Both the position numbers and the translations under genes were made by a program. A stretch of 32,488 bases of DNA, taken from a virus. Location: IMG/VR virus record IMGVR_UViG_3300044647_002964, positions 1 through 32,488 of that record; one strand, 5' to 3'. How positions within the stretch are numbered: position 1 is the stretch's first letter; the number at the start of each line of letters is the position of its first letter. This document shows positions 1 to 28,372 of this stretch, piece by piece. The notes below the pieces were generated by a model, which was not told where the DNA came from, did not search any database, and worked only from the letters and a program-made list of their open reading frames with translations.

Positions 1-1509
1 ATCGCTTCTAGGAGCATAATCTTTTTCTATGGAAGAATACGAAACAATCTGATCAGGCAGATAGTCTCCTATACCTGCAGGGTCAGTAATTTTAACATGG
101 TCGATGGCTGCTTTGGATATAAGCTCAAAATTTCTACGATTTACAGGAAGACCGCTATCGTCAAAAGCTTTTTTCATGGCTTCCATGTAGTATTTTCTGC
201 CATCACCTATTCCTCTGTATTTTACAACTTCGCTAGGATCAATAAGGCCTGTACTCAACACTTGTCCCTGCTCTACTCGGTCTCCTAATTTTACTTTAGG
301 CTCTTGGTCAAATCCAATATAGTGTTCTTGATTATTGATCGATATAAAATGCCCTCCTGCAGCGGCAGGGGTCAAAGCGGTTACAAACCCGTCTTCTTGA
401 GCTAGAGGAGCTTTACCTACAAAAGTTTTGGGAATATTTGCTAGCTGGTTGATTAGTTTGAACCCTTGCTGCCCTCCTAGTGATGTTGCGGCTCCTCCAG
501 AATGTCGTGCTTTCATGGCGCTTTCAGTCAAAGGTTCCGCCACAGCGGTACCTGCTACGAGACCTACATAGCTGTCGAGAGCGGCCATACCTTTCTCGCG
601 TTTACCTACGCACATCTGACACAAGCCTCCAGAGTGATGCTTTTTGTTAGACTGGCATGTCATCGGAGATCGTATAGTAATCTTGTTAACTCCTTTATGC
701 TTTAGGTCGTTGAGCAGCTTGGCAGTTATTTCATTATTTCTGTTATAAGAAGAAATACCTACAGCCAAATATGCGCCTATCGACTCACGGTCGTCCACAG
801 ATACGTCGATACCGTTATGGGTTTCACAATCCGCTTCAACAACCTGCAGAGGCATCAACGCTCTAGCAAACTGTTTGCTGCCGTAACCTCCCTGAGCTAC
901 ACTGATTTTTTTCAAAACTTCTCCGGTTCTAGTTCCAAAAGAAGTAGTCAAATATTCAGGAAGAGTGAGCCCTTCAGCATAAGAGCTTTTGATCGGAATA
1001 TCCATCTTAGGCTTTCCTTCTGCGTCTACGACTATACCTTGAGTGGCTATAGTTCCTCGATACTGTGCAGGAGAACCTCGAGACCCTGCCAAAACAATCT
1101 TGGCTAGAGATCTGTTTTCTTGCAGACCCTTGACCAAGATGTCTTTTTCAAGGTCAGACATCATGGTATTGTAATGATTAAAGATCTTATTATCTTTAAT
1201 TGCCTTAGAGTCTTTGGAGGCTTCTACCTCCTCCTTATATTTTTCAAACCCCTGCCAAAGCTTATTTTTGTCTACAGGCGAAACTAGATCTTTTAAAGTA
1301 ATAGATGTTCCTTGCCTTGTACTAATTTCAAATCCCAATCTGGTAAGGTCGGATACTATTTTACTGTACTGGTCTGGGGATTTTTCTGCCAGCTCAGCAA
1401 AAAGCTTAGATATTCCCTTCTTATCTAGAAGAGTATCTTTAACTGTACTATGTAAGTGTTCAGGAATGAAAAACTTTAATAGTACCTGTCCTACAGTCTG
1501 AATAGCCAT
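1..1509 (-). CDS. RNA polymerase beta' subunit, C-terminal part (3' end beyond window)
   Basis: C-terminal half of the catalytic beta' subunit of a multisubunit RNA polymerase; 503 codons are visible and the frame runs off the left edge. It opens with TVGQVLLKFFIPEHL, matching the conserved start of the bacterial beta' second half. GSRGSPAQYRG (about 142-152) is the bridge-helix-side motif, and the trigger-loop region follows (about 185-215, TTSFGTRTGEVLKK). C228, C285, C297 and C300 match the four ligands of the second beta' zinc site. VAEPLTESAMKARHSGGAA corresponds to the bacterial IGEPGTQLTMRTFH block. Later DPSEVVKYRGIG and ITDPAGIGDYLP match the C-terminal beta' segment. The ATG overlaps the stop of the upstream gene (TAATG), so translation is probably coupled. 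It is the last visible gene of the minus-strand operon that starts at 6040. Confidence 0.93.
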   Translation of the reverse strand, partial: MAIQTVGQVLLKFFIPEHLHSTVKDTLLDKKGISKLFAELAEKSPDQYSKIVSDLTRLGFEISTRQGTSITLKDLVSPVDKNKLWQGFEKYKEEVEASKDSKAIKDNKIFNHYNTMMSDLEKDILVKGLQENRSLAKIVLAGSRGSPAQYRGTIATQGIVVDAEGKPKMDIPIKSSYAEGLTLPEYLTTSFGTRTGEVLKKISVAQGGYGSKQFARALMPLQVVEADCETHNGIDVSVDDRESIGAYLAVGISSYNRNNEITAKLLNDLKHKGVNKITIRSPMTCQSNKKHHSGGLCQMCVGKREKGMAALDSYVGLVAGTAVAEPLTESAMKARHSGGAATSLGGQQGFKLINQLANIPKTFVGKAPLAQEDGFVTALTPAAAGGHFISINNQEHYIGFDQEPKVKLGDRVEQGQVLSTGLIDPSEVVKYRGIGDGRKYYMEAMKKAFDDSGLPVNRRNFELISKAAIDHVKITDPAGIGDYLPDQIVSYSSIEKDYAPRSD

Positions 1510-3040: not shown

Positions 3041-6040
3041 TTATAAGTCTACTCTATCGCCAATATCAAGCTTTCCTGCCAGAAAATCTTTAACGACCTC
3101 CTCGGCCGAAGCGTATTTTTTAGGGGTGTTTTTGTTATCTTCAAAACTAGCTGCAAACAGTCCGGTGGCAGCTTCATTGGATGGAGTGTATATAGGACTG
3201 AACGTCCTGTGATAGATTAGGTTTTTCTCAGGAAGCAGCTTTTCTTTAATTTCCTCTTTGGCGTCATCTGAAGCCGGGAGCTGCACATTCAATTGGTCGC
3301 CGTCACTATCTCCGCCATAACCTTTAAATACAAGAGGATTTAGTTTTATAGAAAAATCCTTAGGGTCAGGATTCATCTTCAAATACATTCCTTGGAAATT
3401 ATACTTTGAAAGCTGCGGGTCTCTGGTGACTATCCCAGGACGGTCATCCATCTCCTGCAGCAGCGACTGCAGAGCCAGCGGATGTTTATTTGTCAGATAT
3501 TCTCGAGCTTTTACTGCAGGGATGCCTTGCCTAACCATTCGTCTTACAATGAATGGAGAATAGATGCTCCATGCGACTTGCTGTGGAATACTTGCCTGAT
3601 TCAAATCTAGGTTTGAGTCTGGAAGTAGTACGGCGCGACCGACCAAGTCAATAGGCTTATTTACCACCTTTGCTTGGAACATGCTTTCCTTGGCAGAACC
3701 TCCTTGCAACCCTAGTGCAGATGCAAGCAATCCTTTGTAACCTTTCTCTACACTTTTTTGTCTAATAGGTTCTCCTAGACCATAAATAGCTTTAACGCCT
3801 TTATATATTTCTTTTTTTGCTGTATTTAAATGCTCTGGAGCAATGTCAGCTTCATGCTCGGAAATAGAGCTCAAAGAGTTGTTAACCAGCATCAGATCTT
3901 TATACAGCTCGTTAATGTCTGCTGTAAGCACCTGATCGCCTTGAGCCATAACAGGACGATATTGTGCAGGAATAACAGGAACTTTAGACAGTAGCATGTC
4001 GGTAGGCTTTAGCTCATTTTGCTTAAGCATAGTAAGAAAGCTAAGCGCCTTAATTGCCTCATCTCTACCTGATTTACGTTTTGTAGAAATAAACCCCTTT
4101 AGCTCGTTAATTTTTTGGTCTATATCAATAGCTTTAAGTTTTTTCTCTAAACTTCCATCAGCTACAGCATCTTCGTAGTTTACTTTAGTTAATTTTAGCA
4201 ATTTGCGTATGTGCTCCTCAGCTAAAGGATTTGGAACCTTGTGAGCTAAATTAACATGATTGTAGTTGTCTCCGTTAATTCCGACAAGAGTAGGGTCAAA
4301 CAAACCTCCATCCTCGTGTACTAACTCATCTTTTTTTAGTTTATACGCCAGAGGCTCTTTTATCTCTCCACTAGATAGAGCCACGATATCTTTATCTACT
4401 TGAGGAAAGATGTGAAATTTAGAGCCTTCCTGCACTACATTGACTCCAGAACCTTTAAGATAGCTGATGAATTTGTTAAAGATGAACGGGACTTTTGGAG
4501 CAGGGAGATTGTGCCCTAGTTTAAGTGCAGTCCAGAACTCGTCGTTTTTTGTTGCACGAATAGTTGCAACGTCACGCAAAACAGCTTTCGCATCGTTAGA
4601 GAGAGCTACTGTGGTAGCAAGATTCCCGAGCCTTTTGGCTTTTTCGTGTGAGCCTGCCTTTGACGGCTGCATGTTAATGTCATATGCAGAAGCGGCTGAC
4701 CTTGTGGATATCTTGTCCTCAGCAATATGATGAAGTCGGTTAAAGTATAACGGACCTGTCAGAACATCTATATGCTTTCCTGAGGAAGGGTCGTACAGTT
4801 TTTCTGTATCAGAAATGTTATTCTTTTTTAAGACCTCGATAACTTTCTCGACAGCAGAGCCATTATAGAAACCTGTCATGTTAATGGCTTTGCCTTTCTT
4901 TTCTGCCAGCTTACCTAGCCCTACTGTGTTGACTAGTCCAGGAGCTACGCGAGAAGTGATGCTCATGGTATTTAAAAGAACGTCGACAGGTTTGCCGTCT
5001 TCTCCTTGCGGCATCTTGGTGTCGGAAACAATATGTACTACTCCTTTTGCTCCGAAGGGCATATTGAGTTTGTCTCCGTGCCCCATAGGTCTGCGAGTCT
5101 TCACAGTGACAGCTATCAGCTTTCCTGAGTGAGATACGTCTGTGACCTCACCATCATACTCATACTCCCAGCAGAGAGTGATGTCAGAGAAAGCATTCTT
5201 GATTACCTTGGAAAGCTTCCCTAGCTGAATGTCCAACGATTTTAATGTTTTTGGTTGATAGGCGAGTATGACCGGATCTCCTGACTTGAGAATAGTTCCT
5301 TTCTTAACAACTCCTCGGGAATCCATATTGGAGAGCTGATCATTATAGAACTTGTTAGGAAAAAGAGAAATAAACTTATCCTTGTCTGTAAGAATACCTC
5401 GACCAAGCTCCAGTCTCACAGGAATAAGCTGCTCTCCCTCCAGCTTCTTGGCGGCTGTCTCAGAAATCACCAGAGCATCTTCAAAGTTCAATGAACGGAA
5501 GGGCATTATAGCCGTCTTCAAGTTCATACCCAAGGAAAGGGCTCCGTTGTTATCCGAATAGTTCGACGTGGCGAGCAGCTGTCCTGGTTTGACTTTGTCT
5601 CCGACAGCTACCTTCGGTGTATGGTGTAGATAGCTTTCTCTTCCGATTATGTAGTTGTTATATTTGTCGTAGGTGTGCTCTTTGCCTGAAGAGTCCTTGA
5701 TTACGATAGAGTCGTCGTCGATCTTACTCACAGTGCCTCCAGTCGATGCTGTGATGCTTACCAGCTTACCAAACTGTTTCACAAAACTGTCTACGCCGGA
5801 CCCTTTAGGGGCTGATTGAATCAGTGGGGCTTCACGATTAACCAAAGTCATCGCCTGCAGGGAAGACTTGTCTCCGATCAATACGCGAGCACCTGAGACA
5901 GAACTCAGTCCAGGAATCAGATTAGTGACAGGACTGAAAAAGTCTGACGGATCGGCTATCGAGTATTTTGACTTCTGCGAAGCTGGTACTTTTTTCAACT
6001 TGCCTTGCGCAAGTATAAACTTGGTGTTTTTTGAGGACAT
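3041..6040 (-). CDS. RNA polymerase beta C-terminal / beta' N-terminal fusion
   Basis: A 999-residue chain joining the C-terminal part of beta to the N-terminal part of beta'. Beta section (about 46-540): VLIGDKSSLQAMTLVNREAP aligns with the bacterial beta block that begins the second half of the subunit. NFED is at 185-188. GDK (322-324) and AKG (331-333) keep the two active-site lysines. DGKPVDVLLN and YFNRLHHIAEDKISTRS are conserved beta segments. Beta' section (from about 550): LSSGEIKEPLAYK, GGLFDPTLVG, LLSKVPVIPAQYRP, NQASIPQQVAWSIYSPFIVR, and DSDGD at 911-915, the Mg-binding aspartate triad (DFDGD in bacteria). The four-Cys beta' zinc-binding domain is missing; this stretch has no cysteines. 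The chain ends just before the segment that opens the beta' C-terminal gene. A GAGGT ribosome-binding site lies about 11 bases before the ATG. It is the first gene of the operon. Confidence 0.96.
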   Translation of the reverse strand: MSSKNTKFILAQGKLKKVPASQKSKYSIADPSDFFSPVTNLIPGLSSVSGARVLIGDKSSLQAMTLVNREAPLIQSAPKGSGVDSFVKQFGKLVSITASTGGTVSKIDDDSIVIKDSSGKEHTYDKYNNYIIGRESYLHHTPKVAVGDKVKPGQLLATSNYSDNNGALSLGMNLKTAIMPFRSLNFEDALVISETAAKKLEGEQLIPVRLELGRGILTDKDKFISLFPNKFYNDQLSNMDSRGVVKKGTILKSGDPVILAYQPKTLKSLDIQLGKLSKVIKNAFSDITLCWEYEYDGEVTDVSHSGKLIAVTVKTRRPMGHGDKLNMPFGAKGVVHIVSDTKMPQGEDGKPVDVLLNTMSITSRVAPGLVNTVGLGKLAEKKGKAINMTGFYNGSAVEKVIEVLKKNNISDTEKLYDPSSGKHIDVLTGPLYFNRLHHIAEDKISTRSAASAYDINMQPSKAGSHEKAKRLGNLATTVALSNDAKAVLRDVATIRATKNDEFWTALKLGHNLPAPKVPFIFNKFISYLKGSGVNVVQEGSKFHIFPQVDKDIVALSSGEIKEPLAYKLKKDELVHEDGGLFDPTLVGINGDNYNHVNLAHKVPNPLAEEHIRKLLKLTKVNYEDAVADGSLEKKLKAIDIDQKINELKGFISTKRKSGRDEAIKALSFLTMLKQNELKPTDMLLSKVPVIPAQYRPVMAQGDQVLTADINELYKDLMLVNNSLSSISEHEADIAPEHLNTAKKEIYKGVKAIYGLGEPIRQKSVEKGYKGLLASALGLQGGSAKESMFQAKVVNKPIDLVGRAVLLPDSNLDLNQASIPQQVAWSIYSPFIVRRMVRQGIPAVKAREYLTNKHPLALQSLLQEMDDRPGIVTRDPQLSKYNFQGMYLKMNPDPKDFSIKLNPLVFKGYGGDSDGDQLNVQLPASDDAKEEIKEKLLPEKNLIYHRTFSPIYTPSNEAATGLFAASFEDNKNTPKKYASAEEVVKDFLAGKLDIGDRVDL

Positions 6041-6188: not shown

Positions 6189-7931
6189 ATGGGCAACTCT
6201 CAGAAAATCTCAAAGACTCTGAGGGCTCGTGTGTTGACATCATACACAAAGATGAGGAAGATCCTACACATGCTCTCTTCGGAAAGAATCTCCGGCTCCT
6301 CAGCTCTAGATCTCATATGCTCGGATGCTGCTGTTGCTAGTCACATGGAGAGGAAGCAGCGTGTTATAGAGCCTGCTGATGATGACAGCTACTCTCAGGA
6401 ACTGCTCTCTGCTCGAGTATCGTCTCCCTCCAAGAGTGCTGTTGCTGAGTTTGAATCTCGTGATCCTATGTTCTCCTCATCTGCTGCTCTTGTGCGTAGC
6501 AGCTCTGCTGTAACTGGTCGCTATGATCTCAACTGGTGCTCTCCCTCTGACTATCGCGACAACTGGGAAAAGCTGAGCTCTGAAGACAAGCTCACCTATC
6601 GTAAGCTCATACTCAGCGATACATACGGTAATGCTAACAGGTATGGTGTTAAAAAACTAAATCTCGAGTCTCACCTGCTTCTCAGTGTGGGTTGCGACAT
6701 GACCAACATTGTGGGTAATGGCAGAAATGCTGTTTTGACGAATCTGAAGGACCCTGTGAGCAAGCTCTATGCTTCGAAATGTCTTCATGAGCGTGCTACC
6801 GATCCCAAGACATGCTTGAGGGCGAGCAAAGAGTTTATCAAGAGCCACAATCTAGAGCTTCTCTATAAACAGGGGTTTGTGGCCTATCAGGCTGTGGTGA
6901 GTGTGGACCTTCCTGTACAGGTGGGACCTTCTGATGAGCTGGCTAAAAAATCAGCGTTTCAATCTTTCTTCAAAGGAAACTGCGAGGCCTTCAGAAAGCT
7001 TCAGAAGAAAAAGAAGATCTACAGCTATGTCTATAGTCACGAAATCAGTGTGGATAGCATTCTTCAAGGAGTCTACAGACCTCATACGCACATACTCTTC
7101 TTCCTGCCTAAAGAGAGCAAACCAGTCATACTCGACAAAGTTCGGCTGTTCGAAGCAGAGTTCAACTCGATGTTCTCTGACAGAACCATGAGTGTAGATC
7201 AGATTGACTCTGACGGAGAGTTTGTGCCGAAGGCTGTGAGCAAAGCAGCCAACGCGGAACGCACAGTAGGATACTTCTATCGAGCCTATTCTCTGGCGAA
7301 TCAGTATATGAGAGAGATTCGCTCAGACAATGTGCGTACCCTCAACACAGCTACTGTAGAATGCTATAGAAGGCTGGTGTGGTTTCTTCAGGCAGAAGAG
7401 GCCAACGGACTTAAAGGAGTACGCAGAACAGGCTGCTCTAACATTCCCTCAGCAGAGGACGGAGAGGATTACGTACATCCACTGTTGCAAAAAGGCAAAA
7501 AATCAAATACAATCAAGAAAGAAAAATCTAAAAAAGAAAAAATTCAAGAAGATTATGACCTTACCCAGTATAAACCCTCAGATGCTGCTGTCTATGGATC
7601 TGACCAGCCAGGAACAGCTAGAGAGCTTCAGAAAGACAGCGAGCGAACTGGGATTCGACCAGGCTTTTTCGGATGGTGTGCTGAGGGAATTGGGAGACAT
7701 TCAGGAAAAGACTGCGATAGACCTGCAGTTGAAAGAGAAGAACTACCTGAAGCATTTGCGGAAGGAACTTTCAAAGATGAGCATGGAGCTTGGAGACAGC
7801 TGTCCATATTCTTCAGAAGAGCTCGATCACATCACATCGAGCCTGGAGACATTCCAGAAAGCAGCAGAGCTAGAGGCCAGGGCAGTATGGGAAGGGATGC
7901 GCGAGGAGCTGCTGAAGCAAGGTGCGGATGA
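6189..7931 (+). CDS. HUH-type endonuclease / Rep-like replication protein, frame overruns the next gene
   Basis: Probable HUH-superfamily DNA nickase (Rep-like). The region GFVAYQAVVSVDLP (around residues 231-244) resembles the first Rep strand. YSYVYSHEISVD, a beta-hairpin and RPHTHILFF follow, with H299 and H301 forming the HUH metal site. A later segment, VGYFYRAYSLANQY, offers Y362, Y364 or Y367 as the nicking tyrosine. The first roughly 100 residues are Ser-rich and not recognised. A Lys-rich linker encoded by A-tracts (7488-7542) ends the believable protein. The frame then stays open 377 bases inside the next gene, with an Arg/Gly-rich, out-of-frame-looking tail. A one-base slip after 7531 would end the protein at the TGA at 7556, which overlaps the next ATG (ATGA). 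The functional end is therefore probably near 7531-7558. The fold call is fairly firm; the replication role is inferred. Confidence 0.75.
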   Translation: MGNSQKISKTLRARVLTSYTKMRKILHMLSSERISGSSALDLICSDAAVASHMERKQRVIEPADDDSYSQELLSARVSSPSKSAVAEFESRDPMFSSSAALVRSSSAVTGRYDLNWCSPSDYRDNWEKLSSEDKLTYRKLILSDTYGNANRYGVKKLNLESHLLLSVGCDMTNIVGNGRNAVLTNLKDPVSKLYASKCLHERATDPKTCLRASKEFIKSHNLELLYKQGFVAYQAVVSVDLPVQVGPSDELAKKSAFQSFFKGNCEAFRKLQKKKKIYSYVYSHEISVDSILQGVYRPHTHILFFLPKESKPVILDKVRLFEAEFNSMFSDRTMSVDQIDSDGEFVPKAVSKAANAERTVGYFYRAYSLANQYMREIRSDNVRTLNTATVECYRRLVWFLQAEEANGLKGVRRTGCSNIPSAEDGEDYVHPLLQKGKKSNTIKKEKSKKEKIQEDYDLTQYKPSDAAVYGSDQPGTARELQKDSERTGIRPGFFGWCAEGIGRHSGKDCDRPAVEREELPEAFAEGTFKDEHGAWRQLSIFFRRARSHHIEPGDIPESSRARGQGSMGRDARGAAEARCG

Positions 7932-9273
7932 GGCCTTTATTGAAGGCATAATGAAGGAAGCTGCGTTCACAGGTCTTGGAAATTTTGCGAACACAGCTGC
8001 TCGTGAGGCTGCTAATATCTATCATGCGGTACCAGGACTTTCAAACGTGGGGCGAGTGATCAGTGACGCAGCCAAGATAGTTCCGCACGCAAAAACAATC
8101 ATCAAAAATCCAGGAGCAGCCATAGAGGCTCTTCCTGAACTTTTCACACGCTCTCACTCAGCATCGAGAGAAGCTGCTCAGGAAGTGGGTCAGGCTGCAG
8201 GCAAAAATCTGGCAGCTCGCCAAAAAGGGTATGAGGGAATTGTGCTCGATCCCTCAAGCCGTCCTGTAGGTTTCGAGGCTCCAGGCTCGTTCGGATATGG
8301 AGGAGGTCGAGATTTGCTAAAGAACGTGCGATCAAGAAACTTCTTCAACAAGTTTCAGCAGTCGGCAGGAAACGATCTTACGCAGATGGAACGTACTCGG
8401 TTAATGGACTCTGTGGGCAAGATCGAGGGAAACATGCAAAACAGACTTCAGCAAGGAGGAGATGCTCACATTCAGCAGAAGTTTCAAGAACTCAATCTGA
8501 ATGCTGCAAATCAAAATCATCCCGAGTATCAAAAATCCAGAGACATTCTACAAAAGATACATGGAGGAGACTGGGACGACTTTGCCGCTCACGCAGGGTT
8601 ACATCCAGACTCTGGGCCTCAGCTCAGTGCAGCTGCCAGAGGAAATTTGAGCCCTCAAGACTTTAGAGGCAATGTGCCGTCTCAATCTACCCTGGAAGAT
8701 ATTCAGAATCATGCCAAAGCTTTGCACGACTCGGGCTTCTCTAGCAACACTGCTCGAGAGTATGTTCCCAAGATGGGTCCTATGGCAAAAGGAGAGACTC
8801 CTGGTATGAGCATGGGACAGCGTGCTGCTGTAGGGGCAGGTGTAGGATTTATGTCTCCTATTCCAGGAGGCACTGTTCTAGGGGCAGGTCTCGGAGCACT
8901 AGGTCCGTGGGGAACAACAGCAGCGCTAGGCTACGGAGGCTACCGACTAGCCAAGAGCATGTTCGGAAAAGACGACAGCTCTACCGATGTTACAGGCCAG
9001 CTTGAAGACAGAAACCGAGCCGTGCCTTTCATGAAGAACAAATGGGCAGGAGGAGTAGGAGGAGCACTGCTAGGCTTGTTGATTGCTAATGAAATGCAGC
9101 GCAACGGTATGGGGAACTATGGAATGATCATGCCCATTCTCGGTGGAGTTCTAGGCTACAATTATCTTCCTGGTATGATGAATCGCTGGAAAGATCCTTA
9201 TGGTGTGGGTGCAAACAGTGTGCAGCCTGGAGCTGCAGCCAGCAACAGTCAATACCCATTAACGACCAACTAG
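7555..9273 (+). CDS. Probable virion / internal protein with membrane-active Gly-Ala C-terminus
   Basis: A 572-residue protein with no recognised enzyme motif. The N-terminal 140 residues are helical and hold two related segments, DQAFSDGVLRE (about 34-44) and DEAFIEGIMKE (about 124-134), plus KTA-type motifs also seen in neighbours. The middle is Gln/Asn/Gly-rich. The C-terminal third has glycine- and alanine-rich hydrophobic stretches (AAVGAGVGFMSPIPGG, GGVGGALLGLLIANEM, MIMPILGGVLGYNYLPG) like those of phage proteins that insert into host membranes during DNA entry. The start at 7555 is kept because residues 1-115 read as a normal helical protein while the competing upstream frame does not; AAGAAG just upstream may serve as ribosome-binding site. 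An internal-virion or ejection role is inference. Confidence 0.8.
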   Translation: MTLPSINPQMLLSMDLTSQEQLESFRKTASELGFDQAFSDGVLRELGDIQEKTAIDLQLKEKNYLKHLRKELSKMSMELGDSCPYSSEELDHITSSLETFQKAAELEARAVWEGMREELLKQGADEAFIEGIMKEAAFTGLGNFANTAAREAANIYHAVPGLSNVGRVISDAAKIVPHAKTIIKNPGAAIEALPELFTRSHSASREAAQEVGQAAGKNLAARQKGYEGIVLDPSSRPVGFEAPGSFGYGGGRDLLKNVRSRNFFNKFQQSAGNDLTQMERTRLMDSVGKIEGNMQNRLQQGGDAHIQQKFQELNLNAANQNHPEYQKSRDILQKIHGGDWDDFAAHAGLHPDSGPQLSAAARGNLSPQDFRGNVPSQSTLEDIQNHAKALHDSGFSSNTAREYVPKMGPMAKGETPGMSMGQRAAVGAGVGFMSPIPGGTVLGAGLGALGPWGTTAALGYGGYRLAKSMFGKDDSSTDVTGQLEDRNRAVPFMKNKWAGGVGGALLGLLIANEMQRNGMGNYGMIMPILGGVLGYNYLPGMMNRWKDPYGVGANSVQPGAAASNSQYPLTTN

Positions 9274-12669: not shown

Positions 12670-12702
12670 GTCTTGCTTTATACTGAGTAAGACTTTATTT
12701 TT
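12670..12702 (+). terminator. Intrinsic terminator after the virion-type operon
   Basis: GTCTTGCT (12670-12677) pairs with AGTAAGAC (12686-12693), with one G-T wobble and an 8-base loop. TTTATTTTT follows. It sits 9 bases after the stop at 12660. Confidence 0.75.
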
Positions 12703-12710
12703 AATCATCT

Positions 12711-12932
12711 ATGTCCACGTCAAGCAAACAAGTATACATCCCGTCGCTAAAGATAGTTGGATCTTTTATGGAAGAAATTGGAGGTACAGCAGACCGGGTT
12801 ATATATCCAGGCAATCCATTTTCTGTTGAACTATCCTCTGAAGATTTTAAAGATCCTGAAGAGTATCACACTGTCTGGATAGCCATAACAAAGGCCGTTA
12901 AACTAAAACTATCTAAAGATGCCTCAGAATAA
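12711..12932 (+). CDS. Small hypothetical protein upstream of beta-N
   Basis: A 73-residue protein (MSTSSKQVYIPSLKIVGSFM...), probably beta-rich with an amphipathic C-terminal helix (WIAITKAVKLKLSKD). No family recognised. It overlaps the polymerase beta N-terminal gene by 14 bases, so the two are probably co-transcribed and translationally linked. The start follows a terminator closely and has no clear ribosome-binding site. Confidence 0.7.
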   Translation: MSTSSKQVYIPSLKIVGSFMEEIGGTADRVIYPGNPFSVELSSEDFKDPEEYHTVWIAITKAVKLKLSKDASE

Positions 12933-13584
12933 TCCTCCAGCACACACCAGAGCTTTTTTCGATCCTATCAGACTTCGGGGAATGTTGTTTGATACGGCCA
13001 AGGAAGCTTTCACTAAAAAACTCAATGCTATAGAAACCCCAGACTTTAAACTGGCTGTTAAAGATCTAAAAATTGAGAGTACGCACGTCACATCTTCAGC
13101 CAAGAAGAAAGCGATCCTCGAAAAGAAAGACCTTACTGTTCCTTTAAAGGGTACGGTAGATCTCATCCACAAGGCGTCTGGTAATGTGGTGGAGTCTAAA
13201 AATACTACCATAGCTCATATTCCGTATTTAACTAACCACAACACTGTAATATACAACGGGTCAGAGTACGAATCTGTAAACCAGCAAAGACTTCTTCCAG
13301 GAGTATATTCCCGTATCAGACAGGACGGCATCCCTGAAGCTCATATAAATCCAGAAGCTCGCACAGGCCAGTCAGCAAGAATATTATTTCTTCCTGAAAA
13401 GCAACTGTTTATCTTGATGGTCAAAAATTCGCAAGTGAGGTTGTACGGTATCTTAAAAGACATGGGTATAACCGACTCAGTCATCAAGGAAGCTTGGGGA
13501 GAGCAGATATACAATGCAAACAGGTTGCAGTATAAAGGAGACGAGATAGATAAGCTCTACGCACTGTTTGTTGGTCCAGATTAG
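12919..13584 (+). CDS. RNA polymerase beta subunit, N-terminal part
   Basis: A 221-residue fragment matching the N-terminal (protrusion) part of bacterial beta. FFDPIRLRGMLFDTAKEAF leads in. VPLKGTVDLIHKASGNVVES and IAHIPYLTNHNTVIYNGSEY then parallel the bacterial '[20 protein letters not shown]' block. NQQRLLPGVYSRI parallels 'VSQLVRSPGVYF', and LFLPEKQLFILM with LYGILKDMGITDSVIKEAWG parallels the 'LLRALG...EEIL' segment. It ends naturally at TAG, before the region that begins the beta-mid gene on the other strand at 21435, so little conserved beta sequence is lost. No intein-like end is visible. It lies among plus-strand virion-type genes, opposite in strand to the other three polymerase pieces. 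Confidence 0.9.
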   Translation: MPQNNPPAHTRAFFDPIRLRGMLFDTAKEAFTKKLNAIETPDFKLAVKDLKIESTHVTSSAKKKAILEKKDLTVPLKGTVDLIHKASGNVVESKNTTIAHIPYLTNHNTVIYNGSEYESVNQQRLLPGVYSRIRQDGIPEAHINPEARTGQSARILFLPEKQLFILMVKNSQVRLYGILKDMGITDSVIKEAWGEQIYNANRLQYKGDEIDKLYALFVGPD

Positions 13585-13608
13585 AGGCTAAGCTTCTGAT
13601 AAATTTAT

Positions 13609-13639
13609 TTGCATACTATTAAAATATGTGCAATACTAT
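13609..13639 (+). promoter_or_regulatory. Candidate promoter for the 144-residue protein unit
   Basis: TTGCAT (13609-13614) and TACTAT (13634-13639) are separated by 19 bases; a second TACTAT occurs at 13614-13619. The same TACTAT element appears before the beta-mid gene and before the reductase gene. Transcription would start about 13646. The -35 match and spacing are imperfect. Confidence 0.4.
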
Positions 13640-13647
13640 AGGTAGCA

Positions 13648-13761
13648 ATGGAGAAGATCATCGGTCTCTCTGGAAGCCTAGCTTCTGTTGCAGCTTTTGA
13701 AGCTCCTCTGCTACTAAACAACAAACCAAATAAAAACACAATATGGCTACATATAAAGTAA
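13648..13761 (+). CDS. Possible 37-residue leader peptide
   Basis: A short ATG-to-TAA frame (MEKIIGLSGSLASVAAFEAP...) starts 8 bases after TACTAT and overlaps the first 19 bases of the next gene in another phase. It could be a leader peptide coupled to that gene, or chance. No homologue is recognised and composition gives little help, so it is offered at low confidence. Confidence 0.25.
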   Translation: MEKIIGLSGSLASVAAFEAPLLLNNKPNKNTIWLHIK

Positions 13762-14177
13762 AAAAACTAGCATCAGGCGCTTCTGATATTTCCGGACTAA
13801 AGACCTCTCGTTATGAGAAGCTTCAAGTCGCATACGGCGCCATCAGCGACACTGCATACGCGCTCAACGACACCCTCGTTTTTCACGATGTGCCGTCAAA
13901 AGATATCATCAGAGCTACGGTGGTCGCTCATGCGACTGTACCTATTACTCTTGAAGTCTTCCCGGCCACAAATGTCACAGGCTCACCATTCACGCTGACT
14001 CTGTCTACTGGACAAGCTGCCTGTAAGATCAGTTATGTTATTGAGTATATCCGTGGCAACGGTAAAGTCGGTATTGGAGCAGGTCCTTCGGACGGAGAGC
14101 TGTTTGCTGTAACTATCGTTGCTGGAGCGCAAGCTATCCCAGCTACAAGGGAAGAGCAGATTCCTGCTGCCTCCTAG
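13743..14177 (+). CDS. Probable abundant small virion protein (decoration or fibre-like)
   Basis: A 144-residue protein of mainly beta character with Ala, Thr, Val and Gly throughout (TVVAHATVPITLEVFPATNV; FTLTLSTGQAACKISYVIEY). There is no signal peptide or enzyme motif. It stands alone between a candidate promoter and a very strong terminator, and its leader is A/C-rich and unstructured, as is common for highly expressed structural genes. These points suggest a capsid decoration or small tail protein, but the family is not recognised and the role is inferred from context and composition. Confidence 0.75.
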   Translation: MATYKVKKLASGASDISGLKTSRYEKLQVAYGAISDTAYALNDTLVFHDVPSKDIIRATVVAHATVPITLEVFPATNVTGSPFTLTLSTGQAACKISYVIEYIRGNGKVGIGAGPSDGELFAVTIVAGAQAIPATREEQIPAAS

Positions 14178-14208
14178 TAGTCTATCACCTAGCTACTTAC
14201 AGTTTAAA

Positions 14209-14240
14209 AAGGGCGCTGTTAATTCAGCGCTCTTTTTTTT
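14209..14240 (+). terminator. Strong intrinsic terminator
   Basis: AAGGGCGCTG (14209-14218) pairs with CAGCGCTCTT (14225-14234), with one G-T wobble and a 6-base loop, directly followed by a T-run to 14240. It lies 31 bases after the stop of the 144-residue gene. Confidence 0.92.
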
Positions 14241-14285
14241 GTACAAAACCCTTGCAGACCCCTTTCGTCACAGGTACTGTTATTG

Positions 14286-14477
14286 ATGTCTGCTATAACT
14301 AACCAAAGTATGAACGAACAAAAAACCTCAAAAGAAGAACAAATTTACAACCTCGTAATCGAGCTCGAGACTGCAAAAAAGAATAAGCGTGATGTAGTCA
14401 AGGCACATACTGAAGAAGTAAAAAGAATTCAGGCAGAAATTAAAGACTTGCTTGAAGAAAATGACGCACTTAACTAA
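14286..14477 (+). CDS. Short coiled-coil protein
   Basis: A 63-residue, highly charged helical protein; EEQIYNLVIELETAKKNKRD and EVKRIQAEIKDLLEENDAL show heptad spacing of Ile and Leu. ATG 14286 is taken as the start; ATG 14310 (MNEQKTSKEEQ) is an equally plausible shorter choice. The next gene is also a short coiled coil, so the two may pair. Unknown role. Confidence 0.65.
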   Translation: MSAITNQSMNEQKTSKEEQIYNLVIELETAKKNKRDVVKAHTEEVKRIQAEIKDLLEENDALN

Positions 14478-20228: not shown

Positions 20229-20765
20229 ATGGAAGAAGAATTGACCAAATATGAAAAGCTTGAGGTTGTAATGTACGCCATGACCTTGACTGAGCGTGCC
20301 GATAAACGTGACCTTTGGCTAAACAAAGGGGCGTTTGCTCGCGTACATAGTCGAGGACCTCGAGCATTGTTTGACTACTGGAAGGCGCGACTGGATTCTG
20401 ATCCTTTGGTAGAAGATTTGCTAAACACTACCTGGGCTAGATTTGTTGCTGAGACAGAAAATCCACCCGCGACCGCCAAGAGCATTTCGGTACAGCCAAA
20501 TAAAGTATCTGCGTTAACAAAAGCAAAAACACTACTACAGGCAGTAAAAAATTTTACAGCAAGCGGGTTCGTTTTTGCTAGTGACGAAGTGTATAATCAA
20601 AGACTAGCTATTTGCAAATCTTGTGAGTTTTGGGACGCTGCTTCTTTTGTCAATACCGGCAGCTGTACTTTGTGTGGGTGCTCTACAAAAGCTAAACTAA
20701 AGCTGCCTCTGGAAAAATGTCCTGCAGATAAATGGCTCCCTGTTAGTGTTCAGGAACATCAATAG
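20229..20765 (+). CDS. Phage protein with C-terminal zinc ribbon
   Basis: A 178-residue protein. Residues 1-110 are helical and charged (LTERADKRDLWLNKGAFARV). The C-terminal 50 residues carry RLAICKSCEFW, SCTLCGCSTKAKLKLPLEKC and PADKW: two cysteine pairs plus a following CP-x-x-KW element typical of zinc-ribbon tails on small phage proteins of unknown function. The 3' end overlaps the convergent beta-mid gene by 23 bases. It closes the fibre-cluster transcript, and no terminator is seen here, so transcription may read into the antisense of beta-mid. Confidence 0.75.
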   Translation: MEEELTKYEKLEVVMYAMTLTERADKRDLWLNKGAFARVHSRGPRALFDYWKARLDSDPLVEDLLNTTWARFVAETENPPATAKSISVQPNKVSALTKAKTLLQAVKNFTASGFVFASDEVYNQRLAICKSCEFWDAASFVNTGSCTLCGCSTKAKLKLPLEKCPADKWLPVSVQEHQ

Positions 20766-21435
20766 TAGAGCTTAAAAATTCCTGATGGTCTATCCATACG
20801 GCTTTGCCTGTACTGTTATCTATTACTTTGCGATAGATTTTTCCGTCGCTTCCTTTGCGTGCGTTATTCACAAAGAAGTTTACAACTCCGATTGTAGTAG
20901 CCTCTACGGTTTGAATGGGATCAAGTAATCCAAACTGACTCTCATTCACTTCTCGAGAACTATCTGGAATAGCTTCACTAGATCCTATTCCTCCCATACC
21001 CATCTTGGTCACTTTGTGAGCAAGCATATACTGCTCCATAGGATTTACTCCCTCGATATTCTGAGCCAGCGAGTTCCCGACAAACACACTCTTCACCTGA
21101 GGACTAAAAAACCCTCCATGCAGCCACGAAAGATTCCTTTTTTGTCTTAGCTTGTTTTTAGCTTTTAGTTGAATCTTGCCTGCGTCATGTTCGATATGTT
21201 CTTTTATAAAATCCTCAGGACCTAAAAATTTCGAAAAGACTACGTTATCACGATCATCAGGCTCCTCTTGTCTTCCGTACACTCTAAGAAGCTTTTGAGA
21301 AGCATTCAGCACAAGGAGAGGACTTAGAGAAGTCGTCGTCAGCCCGAGAGTCCTGCCCATGACGCTAGCATCGAGTTTCATGTTTCTAAAACTCTCTTTA
21401 AGTTTAGTTATTTTTTCTTGTTTACTTAGAGCCAT
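20743..21435 (-). CDS. RNA polymerase beta subunit, middle part (fork / Rif region)
   Basis: A 230-residue fragment matching the central part of bacterial beta. EPDDRDNVVFSKFLGPEDF parallels the 'DDIDHLGNRRVR' block. SLAQNIEGVNPMEQYMLAHK then VTKMGMGGI parallels '[20 protein letters not shown]' then 'ISALGPGGL' without gaps. QFGLLDPIQTVEATTIGVVN parallels '[20 protein letters not shown]', and KIYRKV the following strand. At E. coli positions D516, H526, R529 and S531 this protein has Glu, Leu, Lys and Thr. It ends where the 3041-6040 protein takes up the beta sequence. It is a lone minus-strand gene flanked by plus-strand genes on both sides, with its own candidate promoter and almost no leader. 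Confidence 0.9.
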   Translation of the reverse strand: MALSKQEKITKLKESFRNMKLDASVMGRTLGLTTTSLSPLLVLNASQKLLRVYGRQEEPDDRDNVVFSKFLGPEDFIKEHIEHDAGKIQLKAKNKLRQKRNLSWLHGGFFSPQVKSVFVGNSLAQNIEGVNPMEQYMLAHKVTKMGMGGIGSSEAIPDSSREVNESQFGLLDPIQTVEATTIGVVNFFVNNARKGSDGKIYRKVIDNSTGKAVWIDHQEFLSSTIDVPEH

Positions 21436-21676: not shown

Positions 21677-22129
21677 ATGAATCCTACAGAAAGAACACGT
21701 CCCGACTGGGATCAGTACGGGCTTTTACTTGCTTATGCCGCAGCTCAAAGATCTCCTGATCCTTATGTGCAAGTGGGAGCTGCAGCATTTAAGTCAGACC
21801 ACTCAACAATAGGTACCGGATACAATGGAACTCCGGCTGGAGTTGAAATAGACTGGTCAGACAGAGATAAGCGACGGCCTTTTGTGGATCATGCTGAATA
21901 CAACTGTCTGAGATATACAAAACAGGGAGAGCCTCACTATCTTTACGTAACTCTATCTCCATGTACGGAGTGCTTAAAGCTGGCAGCAGCTCACGGAGTT
22001 AAAGAAATAATCTACAGTGAACTATATGGCAGAGATCAAGCAGCCTTGCATCTAGCCAGCAGTTTAAATATAAATGTAAGGCAACTAGACAGCTCATATG
22101 CGCACCTCTTTAAACCACACTCCGTTTGA
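21677..22129 (+). CDS. Deoxycytidylate (dCMP) deaminase family protein
   Basis: A 150-residue cytidine/deoxycytidylate deaminase fold protein; dCMP deaminase makes dUMP, the precursor of dTMP. H72-A73-E74 (DHAEYNCL) gives the zinc histidine and catalytic glutamate, and PCTEC (95-99) supplies the two zinc cysteines. The N-terminal RPDWDQYGLLLAYAAAQRSP and GTGYNGTPAG match dCMP-deaminase-type sequences. The length fits the family. It lies just upstream of the amidase-like and ribonucleotide reductase genes, forming a nucleotide-synthesis block. Exact substrate (dCMP versus another cytosine nucleotide) is not proven by sequence. Confidence 0.88.
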   Translation: MNPTERTRPDWDQYGLLLAYAAAQRSPDPYVQVGAAAFKSDHSTIGTGYNGTPAGVEIDWSDRDKRRPFVDHAEYNCLRYTKQGEPHYLYVTLSPCTECLKLAAAHGVKEIIYSELYGRDQAALHLASSLNINVRQLDSSYAHLFKPHSV

Positions 22130-22866: not shown

Positions 22867-24717
22867 ATGAGCAAGGAATTCCTAAGCAAACTCGTACACT
22901 ACCGCACATACGCAAAATATCTTCCTGAAGAGCTTCGCAGAGAGTCTAAAGAGGAGACTATAAATAGGAATATGCAGATGCATATCCGGAAGTTTCCTGA
23001 GCATGCAGAAGCTATTGAAAAAGCATACGAGCAGGTTTTTGCCGGTAGGGTAGTTCCCAGCATGCGCAGCTTCCAGTTCGCTGGCGAAGCAATTGAGCGT
23101 CGCAATAATCGAATGTTTAATTGCAGTTTCCTAAACATCACAAAGTTTAGAGATTTTGCAGACCTATTCTACATGAGCATGAGCGGTGTAGGTGTCGGCT
23201 TCAGCGTCAAAAAGAAACACATCTCTTCTCTAGGAGCTATTCCCGAAGGCGCTGTGGTCCCTCCCTATGTTGTGGCTGACTCGGCAGAGGGTTGGTGCGA
23301 TAGCTTGCTGGAACTTTTCCGCAACCCTGATCTGCAGTTCGACTATACTCCCATTCGTCCTATGGGTGCTCCTTTGAGTACAGGAGGGACAGCTAGTGGT
23401 CCGAAAGCTCTAATCAAGATGCATGCGAATGTCCGTGCAATTTTGAGGAAGGCTGTCGGACGGCAACTCACCCCTTTCGAATGTCATCGCGTTGCCTGTT
23501 TGATTGCCGATTGCGTTGTTGTCGGAGGCGTTCGTAGAGGAGCACTGATTAGTCTGTTCGATGTGGATGATGAAGAACTTCTGAACTGCAAAGCAAACAA
23601 CTGGTGGGAAAAATATCCTGAGCTTGCTCGTGCAAATAACTCCGCTGTTCTACGCAAAGACGATCCAGACTTTAGAGAAAAAGCAGGCAGGGTAATTGAT
23701 GCTTGTTTTGCTGGCGGTCAGGCAGAGCCTGGCCTGAGTCTCACCAACGATGATGAGATGGGATTCAATCCTTGTCACGAGATTGCACTCAAGAGTATGG
23801 GTGTCTGCAACCTTACAGAAATTAATGCCGCTCAATGCTTCAGCAAAGAAGATTGGCTGAAGGCTGTTGTTAGTGCGACTATTCTAGGAACACTACAAGC
23901 AACCTATACAGACTTTAAATATGTGCAGCCTGAGTGGAAAAAGAACGCAGACGAAGAAGCGTTGCTAGGGGTGAGCATCACAGGACAAGCTGAAGCTCAA
24001 GCCATTTTGACTCCAGAAAACCTTAAAGAAGGTGCAGAGGTAGCAGTTCAGGTAAACAAGCTCTGGGCGCAAAAGCTGGGAATCAACCCTGCTCGCCGAA
24101 TAACTACCACAAAACCTTCAGGAACCAGCAGCAGCTGGCTAGGAACAACTGCAGGTGTACATGCAGGACATGAGATTCGTTATGTGCGTCGTGTACGTAT
24201 GGATAAGTTTAGCGCGCTGGCTAAAGCTTTAGCCAAGAAATTCCCTGCTTTTGTTGCAGAAGATCCATTCAACAGCAACGACATGATCATGCAGGTTCCT
24301 ATCAAACTGTATGACACCACACTCCTCAGAAGCCAGGAAACCGCTGTGCAGTGTTTGGAGCGCGTGAAAGTATTGTATGACAGCTGGATTGTTCCAGGGC
24401 ACATTGTTGGAGACAATACCCACAACATCAGTCTAACCATAAACTACCACGAGCATGAAAAAGAAGCGATCAAGCGCTGGATGCTAGATAACAGAGATTC
24501 ATATTATGGTATCAGCCTCATTCCATATGACGGCGGAGACTATAAATACCTGCCCTACAGCCAGCCTCCACATCCTGAAATTTTTGAAATTTTAGAGAAG
24601 GCTTTTTCTCTCGTCACCGACGAGTTCAAATTTGAAGATATTCGTGAAAGAAAAGATAACACTGACTTCAAAGGAGAGATTGCTTGTGCAGGAGGAGCCT
24701 GTAGCTTAGAGCTGTAG
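22867..24717 (+). CDS. nrdJ: Adenosylcobalamin-dependent (class II) ribonucleotide reductase
   Basis: A 616-residue monomeric class II reductase that converts ribonucleotides to deoxyribonucleotides using the radical from adenosylcobalamin. N301-P-C303-H-E305 is the active-site motif, with C303 the radical cysteine. C86 (FNCSFLN) and C314 (GVCNLTEIN) form the redox pair. The tail CAGGACSLEL carries the C-terminal cysteines (607 and 612) that re-reduce the site. GVGVGFSVKK and TTTKPSGTSSSWLG are further conserved blocks. It is shorter than the roughly 740-residue Lactobacillus enzyme; an N-terminal allosteric region is reduced. The leader is A-rich without a ribosome-binding site. A cobalamin adenosyltransferase gene lies 650 bases downstream. 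Confidence 0.95.
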   Translation: MSKEFLSKLVHYRTYAKYLPEELRRESKEETINRNMQMHIRKFPEHAEAIEKAYEQVFAGRVVPSMRSFQFAGEAIERRNNRMFNCSFLNITKFRDFADLFYMSMSGVGVGFSVKKKHISSLGAIPEGAVVPPYVVADSAEGWCDSLLELFRNPDLQFDYTPIRPMGAPLSTGGTASGPKALIKMHANVRAILRKAVGRQLTPFECHRVACLIADCVVVGGVRRGALISLFDVDDEELLNCKANNWWEKYPELARANNSAVLRKDDPDFREKAGRVIDACFAGGQAEPGLSLTNDDEMGFNPCHEIALKSMGVCNLTEINAAQCFSKEDWLKAVVSATILGTLQATYTDFKYVQPEWKKNADEEALLGVSITGQAEAQAILTPENLKEGAEVAVQVNKLWAQKLGINPARRITTTKPSGTSSSWLGTTAGVHAGHEIRYVRRVRMDKFSALAKALAKKFPAFVAEDPFNSNDMIMQVPIKLYDTTLLRSQETAVQCLERVKVLYDSWIVPGHIVGDNTHNISLTINYHEHEKEAIKRWMLDNRDSYYGISLIPYDGGDYKYLPYSQPPHPEIFEILEKAFSLVTDEFKFEDIRERKDNTDFKGEIACAGGACSLEL

Positions 24718-26405: not shown

Positions 26406-27620
26406 ATGGCATTTATTATACTTGTAGCTCTTTCTGCATTTTTTGTGGCCGGTTGTGCTGCCTTTTTTAGTATAAAAGGACTTGTTGTATTATTTTCTGG
26501 AAGTTCACTGGCTATAGGCATAATGGCCAGCTCTCTGGAGATAGGAAAGCTTGTTGCTGCTAGCTTTCTTCATAGCTACTGGAAAGATATTAAATTTTTA
26601 CTTAAAGTTTATCTCTGTAGTGCTGTGTTAGTTTTAATGGGCGTTACTAGCTTGGGTATTTTTGGTTTTTTAACAAATGCCTATCAAACACACGCCACCA
26701 CCGTAAGTTCTTTTGAAACCAAAATAAAAACTCTAGAGAACGAGAAGCTCTCGCTGGTTGAGAGTATCAGCAACAACTCAGAAAGAGTTAGAGTGCTGTC
26801 AGATATACGTACAACACAAGAACAGCGCGTAAAAGATGCTGGTAACTACAAAGCCCCCAGAGATCAGGCTTATAAGGCGATAGCCGACGCTAATGAGGAA
26901 GCACAAAAGAAAGAGGCTTTGATTTCCCAATCTAGAGAAAGAAGCATATCTGTAGACAGGGAGATAGAAGATTTAAAAATAGCTATGAATACAACTACAG
27001 ACGTAGGGTCATTCAAATTTATAGCTAATGCACTCAACACTGACGTAGATACCTCTGTTCAATACTTTATATTTGCCCTGATTACTGTTTTTGACCCTTT
27101 GGCAGTCACTCTAATTCTAGCTTTAAACAAGCTTATTGAGCTTAGGAGCGCACGGAAAGAAGCAGAGATGAAAGAGCTGGAAAACCTACTCAGGACCGAA
27201 GTGGTGCCTGAGTACAGCGAGATTTCATCACCATCTACATCTCCAGCCCCTATATTTGTTCCGCCCTCTTCTGCTCCTGTTATTGCTCCCGACATCGCTC
27301 CTGCTTCTGTTGCGCACGAACCTGCAGTGACTGAACTTGTCGAAGAAATAATTCCTCCTGCCGTTCTGGTCGTCCCGCCTGAGCCTGAGGTTGTGTCCTA
27401 CACTCCTGTCATAGTGCATGCCGCTCCAGAAGACCCTCTGTGGGCTCTTGAAGACTCTACGCCTGTTCCGGCTTCAGTGTCAGAGACTTTACGGATTGAC
27501 GTTCCTACAGATATGGTATCAGGTCTTCCTGTAGCTCATGTAGACTCTGAAGACCCACATACTGATACTAAGCGTAGAACAATACAATCAGGCGACAACA
27601 ACTCTATAATCAGAGGCTAA
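26406..27620 (+). CDS. Multi-pass membrane protein with coiled coil and Pro-rich tail
   Basis: A 404-residue membrane protein. Predicted membrane segments: about 2-22 (FIILVALSAFFVAGCAAFF), 24-45, 65-88 (YLCSAVLVLMGVTSLGIFGF) and about 215-240 (YFIFALITVFDPLAVTLILA). A charged coiled-coil region (about 95-200) lies between segments 3 and 4. After a charged stretch the last 130 residues are Pro/Val/Ala-rich and probably disordered. ATG 26406 is chosen; an in-frame GTG at 26367 would add 13 residues. Similar membrane proteins are frequent in large aquatic phages, without known function. Its stop overlaps the stop of the convergent PhoH gene (CTAA shared). Confidence 0.75.
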   Translation: MAFIILVALSAFFVAGCAAFFSIKGLVVLFSGSSLAIGIMASSLEIGKLVAASFLHSYWKDIKFLLKVYLCSAVLVLMGVTSLGIFGFLTNAYQTHATTVSSFETKIKTLENEKLSLVESISNNSERVRVLSDIRTTQEQRVKDAGNYKAPRDQAYKAIADANEEAQKKEALISQSRERSISVDREIEDLKIAMNTTTDVGSFKFIANALNTDVDTSVQYFIFALITVFDPLAVTLILALNKLIELRSARKEAEMKELENLLRTEVVPEYSEISSPSTSPAPIFVPPSSAPVIAPDIAPASVAHEPAVTELVEEIIPPAVLVVPPEPEVVSYTPVIVHAAPEDPLWALEDSTPVPASVSETLRIDVPTDMVSGLPVAHVDSEDPHTDTKRRTIQSGDNNSIIRG

Positions 27621-28372
27621 TTTTTTTTAGACTCCATTACTGCAGGATTCTCTTCAAAAGTTTTCACTATGAATCTGCAGAGTTCGCTACGAACAATGTC
27701 CGAAGAATCAAAAGCTACGCTATATATGCCGAACTGCTGAGCTTCGACAGTATTGAACATGTGAGCGCACTTTTCAAAGCCTCCTTGTTTGTTCTTAGGT
27801 AGGTCAGACTGCTTGGGATCTGCACACAAAATCATTTTTGTAAACTTCCCTATACGAGTCATCAGAGTCTGAATCTCGTTAATTGTTAGATCTTGGCACT
27901 CGTCGATTATAATTAATTTAGCTGTCCAGCTAGCCCCTCTAACAAAATTAATGGGCTGGTAGATAAACCTATTTTCAGCTTTTAGTTTTTTAACATCTCC
28001 GGCACACAGCAACTCTTCCAGTTTATCTTCGAAAGGTCCCATATAAGGCTCATACTTTCCGTTAATGTCTCCAGGAAGATAGCCGAGCTTTGAGTCTGCA
28101 GACTCTACAGCAGCCCGCACAAAGACAAGGTCGGACACCTTCTTACTGTTTAACATCTCTAGTCCGATTCTCATTGCGCAGGTGGTCTTGCTGCTTCCTG
28201 CAGGACCAGACAAGAAGATAATTCTGCTGTCTCTAGCTGATCCTAGCTCAATTAAAGCTTTTTGCTTTTCGGTCCATGGAAGCTCGCGAATTTTAAGCTC
28301 GAAAGAAATTTTTTCTCTCTGGTACACCTTAGGGCTAGTGTCTGGTTTTGCGGGCGTTTTTGGTTTTGTCAT
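27617..28372 (-). CDS. phoH: PhoH-like ATPase
   Basis: A 251-residue P-loop ATPase of the PhoH family, related to superfamily 1 helicase cores. Walker A is GPAGSSKT (56-63) and Walker B is LIIIDECQDL (D157, E158). TEKQKALIEL precedes Walker A as the Q-like motif, and LCADPKQSDLP matches the sensor-type motif of the family. PhoH genes are very common in phages of aquatic bacteria; their cellular role is unsettled (RNA metabolism or phosphate stress). It is the last gene of a three-gene minus-strand operon starting at 29077 and starts 1 base after the preceding stop. Confidence 0.93.
   Translation of the reverse strand: MTKPKTPAKPDTSPKVYQREKISFELKIRELPWTEKQKALIELGSARDSRIIFLSGPAGSSKTTCAMRIGLEMLNSKKVSDLVFVRAAVESADSKLGYLPGDINGKYEPYMGPFEDKLEELLCAGDVKKLKAENRFIYQPINFVRGASWTAKLIIIDECQDLTINEIQTLMTRIGKFTKMILCADPKQSDLPKNKQGGFEKCAHMFNTVEAQQFGIYSVAFDSSDIVRSELCRFIVKTFEENPAVMESKKN

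Follow-up and report, generated by a model that had tools for sequence, protein, structure and literature searches.

The fusion gene and its catalytic motifs

The stretch of DNA analyzed here, referred to as the window, is a virus fragment of 32,488 bases from IMG/VR. On its minus strand, one open reading frame encodes a 999-residue protein in which the C-terminal ~54% of RNA polymerase (RNAP) beta runs into the N-terminal part of beta', and both the frame and its length agree with the initial annotation. Since the frame measures only 1002 aa from stop to stop, 6040 is its natural start. The features of this chain are as follows.

3041..6040, minus strand: beta-C::beta'-N fusion gene, 999 aa (open reading frame, motifs, Pfam, PDB, relatives)
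4421..6040, minus strand: beta-C part, residues 1-540, E. coli beta ~623-1342 (Pfam Rpb2_6, E. coli alignment, VIA-align)
5477..5488, minus strand: NFED motif, residues 185-188
5069..5077, minus strand: GDK, residues 322-324, with the first catalytic lysine K324 (E. coli K1065 by alignment)
5042..5050, minus strand: AKG, residues 331-333, with the second catalytic lysine K332 (E. coli K1073)
4397..4420, minus strand: joint, residues ~541-548 (AlphaFold2 pLDDT 76-90; ATG absent here; pN similar to the flanks)
3044..4396, minus strand: beta'-N part, residues 549-999, E. coli beta' ~28-550 without the zinc domain
4265..4285, minus strand: deletion site of the beta' zinc-binding domain, residues ~586-592 (E. 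coli ~65-100 absent)
3296..3310, minus strand: DSDGD, residues 911-915, with the Mg triad D911/D913/D915

Pfam, PDB matches, and motifs agree that both sides of the active site lie on one chain. Pfam recognized Rpb2 domain 6 at residues 98-461 (E 4e-43) and, on the same chain, Rpb1 domain 1 at 667-731 and Rpb1 domain 2 at 865-933. Solved structures of bacterial beta matched residues ~12-552 (best E 2e-39), and those of bacterial beta' matched ~607-999 (best E 7e-35). VIA-align, which covered residues 1-539 of the predicted model, returned Z scores of 31-33 to bacterial beta chains; the beta' part was assigned from sequence matches. The signature of a two-barrel RNAP is present, with the beta lysines and the beta' DxDGD triad inside beta and beta' domains. 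NFED at 185-188, the GDK/AKG lysines within 322-333, and DSDGD at 911-915 all lie at the residues first proposed for them. Their catalytic letters are invariant across relatives, while the second letter of DSDGD varies (S, C, N, or Y). The absence of the beta' zinc-binding domain, also part of the original reading, is borne out by the alignment, where E. coli ~65-100 has no counterpart.

The joint had been expected near residues 540-555 and was located at about 540-549; in E. coli numbering, the chain passes there from the C-terminal end of beta (1342) to residue ~26 of beta'. The structure prediction proposed for this junction was run with AlphaFold2, and the region is well predicted, with strands at 533-538 (the last of beta) and 541-546 ahead of a beta' helix at 549-555. 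The pTM of 0.60 for the fusion-chain model means that the placement of its domains is uncertain. Between the window and six relatives, pN was 0.12-0.26 at residues 531-570, similar to the flanks, and pS was 0.57-0.97, mostly near saturation. The fusion is evidently kept by selection as one reading frame through the joint. Internal initiation was considered and rejected, as there is no ATG between residues 457 and 671, and the alternative starts GTG 536/553 and TTG 580/614 are without a well-spaced ribosome site.

Relatives of the fusion chain

A scan of viral contigs found the same chain in nine other IMG/VR loci at 69-81% identity, on contigs of up to 204 kb, and a profile scan added further loci at 51-70% identity plus a wide set at 30-37%. 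Searching metagenomic phages for the same fusion, as the initial annotation had suggested, thus yielded more than a dozen independent contigs that carry it at 51-81% identity, although most relatives are fragments. Four annotated phage genomes, those of one Salmonella phage and three Vibrio phages, are 30-32% identical to the window over the fusion chain.

Salmonella phage Arash: GenBank OQ632216 (gp206/gp216)
Vibrio phage D69: GenBank OZ195729
Vibrio phage D181: GenBank OZ196140
Vibrio phage D148: GenBank OZ196545

One record labeled "Acinetobacter phage" (L086) was rejected as a phage because its rpoB and rpoC adjoin ribosomal protein genes, which marks it as bacterial DNA, and it was taken as an outgroup. 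Unannotated Staphylococcus and Listeria matches are probably of the same kind.

The remaining chains of the polymerase core

In Arash gp206 and D69_0261, everything from the start of beta to the end of beta'-N (beta-N1, beta-N2, beta-C, and beta'-N) forms a single chain of 1525-1527 aa. With the first 470 residues of these chains as queries, the part of beta missing from the fusion was found as two more genes in the window. A separate gene for the rest of beta' lies downstream of the fusion, as the initial annotation had stated in describing beta' as cut again.

12919..13584, plus strand: beta-N1 chain, 221 aa, E. coli beta ~35-229, the first lobes of beta
20743..21435, minus strand: beta-N2 chain, 230 aa, E. 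coli beta ~403-607
1..1509, minus strand: beta'-C chain, E. coli beta' from ~569, 503 aa visible before it runs off the contig end
1509..3003, minus strand: three small genes (131, 294, and 66 aa) between the fusion and beta'-C

Beta-N1 aligns with residues 28-222 of Arash gp206, its family profile matches bacterial beta (E 6e-13), and its predicted model matches the B1-B2 region of solved PDB beta chains. Beta-N2 aligns with residues 231-469 of the same protein, matches Pfam Rpb2_3 over the cut-off, and has a family profile that matches bacterial beta with E 2e-21. Beta'-C matches Rpb1_5 and, weakly, Rpb1_3, and is ~616-618 aa long in close relatives. The window therefore holds a full set of beta and beta' regions, with beta'-C truncated by the contig end and whole in relatives. 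Because the missing part of beta is accounted for by the two additional genes, the predicted core consists of four chains: beta-N1, beta-N2, beta-C::beta'-N, and beta'-C.

This arrangement is not peculiar to the window. Beta-N1 is a separate gene in 8 of the first 9 relatives, and so is beta-N2; the ninth contig stops shortly before the fusion gene. In these relatives, beta-N2 lies 4-7 kb from beta-N1, and beta-N1 lies 7-18 kb from the fusion, with order and strands constant. Both genes are also separate in the deeper clade members L033, L039, L056, and L088, with order and strands unchanged. The last of these (RXKB01000001.1, 226,528 bp) was binned into a metagenome-assembled genome (MAG) of Candidatus Dependentiae and has all three genes, those for the fusion, beta-N1, and beta-N2; it is possibly a phage contig and would then give a hint at the host.

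In E. coli numbering, beta-N1 and beta-N2 part between about 229 and 403-419 of beta, where the lobe region is reduced, beta-N2 and beta-C part near 622 of beta, and beta'-N and beta'-C part at about 550/569 of beta'. A single-chain relative (L042) reads straight across the last of these sites with a couple of extra residues. The three small genes between the fusion and beta'-C had no Pfam or PHROG match; those of 294 and 131 aa keep the same position in relatives, and we regard them as neighbors of the polymerase genes only.

Chain topologies in the family

Scanning 85 loci with module profiles revealed five ways of distributing the same core.

One frame of ~2034-2044 aa, whole beta::beta': L042, L043, and L044, and L053 with an insert
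Beta::beta'-N plus separate beta'-C: Arash, D69, L040, L049, L059-L067, and others
Beta plus the first ~115 residues of beta'-N, then the remainder of beta'-N, then beta'-C: L069-L084
Beta-N1, then beta-N2-beta-C::beta'-N: L055
Four chains: the clade of the window

Four places break in one member or another, and among the complete loci of the survey, none breaks at the joint between beta-C and beta'-N. Within the Arash/D69-type family, as far as these reading frames reveal, the joint stays in place while the breaks shift. In the sister group L069-L084, where beta' breaks ~115 residues into beta'-N, some of the frames are nearly adjacent or overlapping and may reflect a programmed frameshift.

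Inteins and introns in the polymerase genes

Several relatives carry mobile elements in these genes. In L034, L054, and L056 (~12700-14400), an intein sits inside the DxDGD motif (AD, intein, SDGD); it has LAGLIDADG and intein-splicing domains and the same length in all three assemblies, and these two-ORF genes have a frameshift about 14 residues into it. Inteins or intein-like inserts also occur in L053 (8543-16384), after the DxDGD motif, and in L052 (7559-14167) and L055 (8045-13993), at two sites each in beta. In D148 (L013:7051-7331, E 1e-26) and L068 (11536-11817, E 1e-28), a shared site in beta holds a group I intron (Rfam RF00028), and the two-ORF genes of L048/L068 and of D148 are interrupted in this way. 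Given that the D148 intron is accompanied by a homing endonuclease gene, the two annotated coding sequences of D148 are probably one spliced gene.

With such elements in L052, L053, L055, L034, D148, and L068, one possibility is that the chain breaks themselves are direct scars of homing. The inserts, however, occupy conserved segments, for example ~40 residues downstream of the break between beta-N2 and beta-C, and not the breaks. Split inteins that would rejoin the chains were considered separately and rejected, because beta-N1, beta-N2, and the fusion match their family profiles almost end to end and leave no room for them.

Order of fusion and breakage

FastTree trees were built from the concatenated modules and from the beta-C/beta'-N core, with the root set by three distant bacterial-type outgroups on a long branch of about 1.2 substitutions per site. 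In both trees, the split-beta clade groups with L049, L052, and L055 (support 1.0), and L049 and L052 carry beta::beta'-N in one frame. Unsplit beta::beta'-N occurs in both main clades, and beta of the outgroup is likewise unsplit, which argues that the splits in beta came later. The halves-only fusion of the window is most simply read as an ancestral fusion involving the whole of beta, which later split twice. In the sequence of events that we propose, an ancestral beta::beta' fusion would have broken first in beta', past the Mg-binding domain, and later twice in beta, in the clade of the window.

The opposite direction has a precedent, since a fragments-first origin has been proposed for jumbo-phage RNAPs (PMC7824862). 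Applied here, the four-chain state would be ancestral and its chains would have been joined stepwise, up to the single chain of 2040 aa, in an enzyme that works the same way throughout. The placement of the single-chain contigs leaves some room for this: L042, L043, and L053 branch deep in one tree and elsewhere in the other, so the direction of change in beta' is not firmly fixed. For beta, the one-frame beta::beta'-N of both main clades and the unsplit outgroup speak against it, and we consider a fragments-first history unlikely overall.

Comparison with known polymerases

Nearest to the window are the Arash/D69-type enzymes, which likewise have the C terminus of beta joined to the N terminus of beta', lack the zinc domain, and keep beta'-C separate. 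They differ in carrying the whole of beta on the fusion chain, for a two-chain core, whereas beta-N1 and beta-N2 are separate genes in the window. The window polymerase is by sequence a member of this family, with beta further split.

The natural fusions of Helicobacter and Wolbachia join whole beta and beta' in one chain that works with alpha and omega. Their order is that of the window, beta C terminus to beta' N terminus, but whole subunits are joined there into one chain, in contrast to the four chains here. The initial annotation had drawn the same contrast in noting that only halves are joined. This is true of the window and does not extend to its family, in which whole beta is joined to beta'-N (Arash and D69) or to whole beta' (L042/L043), so that the contrast dissolves. 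The chains of ~2040 aa in L042, L043, and L044, with whole beta and beta', resemble a phage version of the Helicobacter and Wolbachia fusion.

RNAPs of the PhiKZ/AR9 type have their beta and beta' pieces on separate chains and come as a virion and a non-virion enzyme (PMC7598289, PMC7824862). The window shares with them a beta and a beta' in pieces, a beta' cut after the Mg-binding barrel, and, as predicted from its relatives, a core without alpha or omega; among PHROG families, those named RNA polymerase beta subunit match its polymerase moderately. The beta' of cyanobacteria and of jumbo phages is cut in the region after the Mg-binding barrel (PMC7598289), the same region as the break at ~550/569 in the window. 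However, beta-C and beta'-N share one 999-aa chain in the window in place of the separate pieces of the PhiKZ/AR9 type, and the window polymerase is for that reason not of this type.

The mReC phages, like the window, encode beta and beta' that can still be aligned with cellular RNAP. The paper describing them gives no account of fusion or splitting among its own enzymes and mentions a fusion only for crAss-like phages; its capsid family PF07068 was found in only 8 contigs (PMC7481178). That capsid family, a marker present in so few of their contigs, was found in 0 of 19 records of the Arash/D69 family, with a T4 control positive. The RNAPs of crAss-like phages and YonO also have both active-site barrels on one chain but are very divergent, whereas the beta and beta' domains of the window are recognized by ordinary profiles. 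In the PMC full texts searched, we found beta-beta' fusion in phages described for crAss-like enzymes only, and not for the Arash/D69 family.

A probable four-chain core with a covalent joint

These data support a model, which we consider very probable, that the window encodes a working phage RNAP core of four chains in which the covalent joint helps hold beta and beta' together. The fusion would be translated as one polypeptide carrying the two lysines of the beta barrel and the beta' DxDGD triad, and we infer that this chain stays intact in vivo and is part of an active polymerase. The other three chains would add the protrusion and lobe region of beta, the fork region, and the jaw and trigger-loop side of beta', assembling on the fusion chain without alpha or omega. 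In line with this, neither alpha (PF01193) nor omega (PF01192) was found in 10 long contigs of relatives, themselves possibly incomplete, with control genomes positive. As the joint sits where the beta C terminus and the beta' N terminus meet in other RNAPs, it probably takes over part of the holding together done by alpha and omega in bacteria. Whether the joint goes further and is a fixed scaffold in place of alpha and omega, around which the other breaks come and go from one chain (~2040 aa) by way of two and three to four, with the window at the four-chain end, is a proposal that we hold with evenly balanced confidence.

A fusion gene need not mean a fused enzyme if a phage or host protease were to cleave the product at the joint, leaving five working chains as in PhiKZ/AR9. 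Many phages process large proteins, and the joint is a short stretch between domains where a cut could fall. Against cleavage, the linker is short, predicted to be structured, and as conserved as its flanks; no intein, protease, or insert was found at the joint in the window; and no complete member of the survey breaks there, despite breaks at four other places. We therefore regard a precursor as improbable, more so than the fragments-first history, and the intact fusion chain as the probable working form. It is very improbable that the polymerase is a decaying or inactive relic, for although its fragmentation resembles decay at first sight, catalytic residues are invariant, purifying selection is apparent, and all pieces are retained in distant members of the clade. 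An assembly artefact joining two genes, the objection foreseen in the initial annotation, has next to no probability, since the identical joint recurs in independent assemblies from different samples and in cultured or annotated phage genomes, and purifying selection acts on it as on its flanks.

RNA polymerase is a universal enzyme, and the extent to which its large subunits tolerate cutting and joining bears on how it assembles and on ideas that it originated from pieces. The jumbo-phage enzymes described so far are split, and the known fusions of bacteria are whole; the Arash/D69 family is both at once. It also bears on whether the split RNAPs of phages are ancient fragments or products of later breakage, and here the breakage of beta looks later. 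With a graded natural series of chain topologies that includes the cultured members Arash and D69, the idea that a covalent tie between beta and beta' replaces alpha and omega as the assembly platform becomes directly testable.

Sigma factors, candidate promoters, and other genes of the window

Phage genes are the probable templates of the polymerase, which in some members probably works with a phage sigma factor. Sigma-70 region 2 was detected in 5 of 10 contigs (3 over the cut-off). For region 4, the count was 7 of 14 records, among them the MAG with its host genes. In Arash (L011), a motif made of GGTATAAG, about five bases, and a GTGTAAACA-like word has seven upstream copies in 33 kb.

7039, 11054, 11237, 11515, 21088, 22587, and 22864, minus strand: sites of the Arash motif

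This GGTATAAG-N~5-GTGTAAACA motif is a candidate promoter, which the phage RNAP would use. In Vibrio phage D69, TTTGTTATAAGTAATAT or a close variant stands at four upstream sites, and in relative G001, a search for a shared promoter motif gave nothing beyond TATAAT-like words. Just 3' of beta'-C, seven relatives (L002:16476, L004:16457, L007:16413, and others) share a conserved GGTTCTTGATATACAAG...ATAAAAT; this element contains the inverted repeat TTCTTG/CAAGAA and is also readable as TTGATA-N17-TAAAAT.

Diverging from the fusion gene on the plus strand, a frame at 6189-7931 weakly matches the G2P replication-protein family (E 0.006, below the cut-off) and overlaps a second long plus-strand frame at 7555-9273 by 377 bases. 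Elsewhere, the window encodes a dCMP deaminase (21677-22129), a ribonucleotide reductase (22867-24717), a PhoH-like protein (27617-28372), and a DUF6625 protein (30039-31115).
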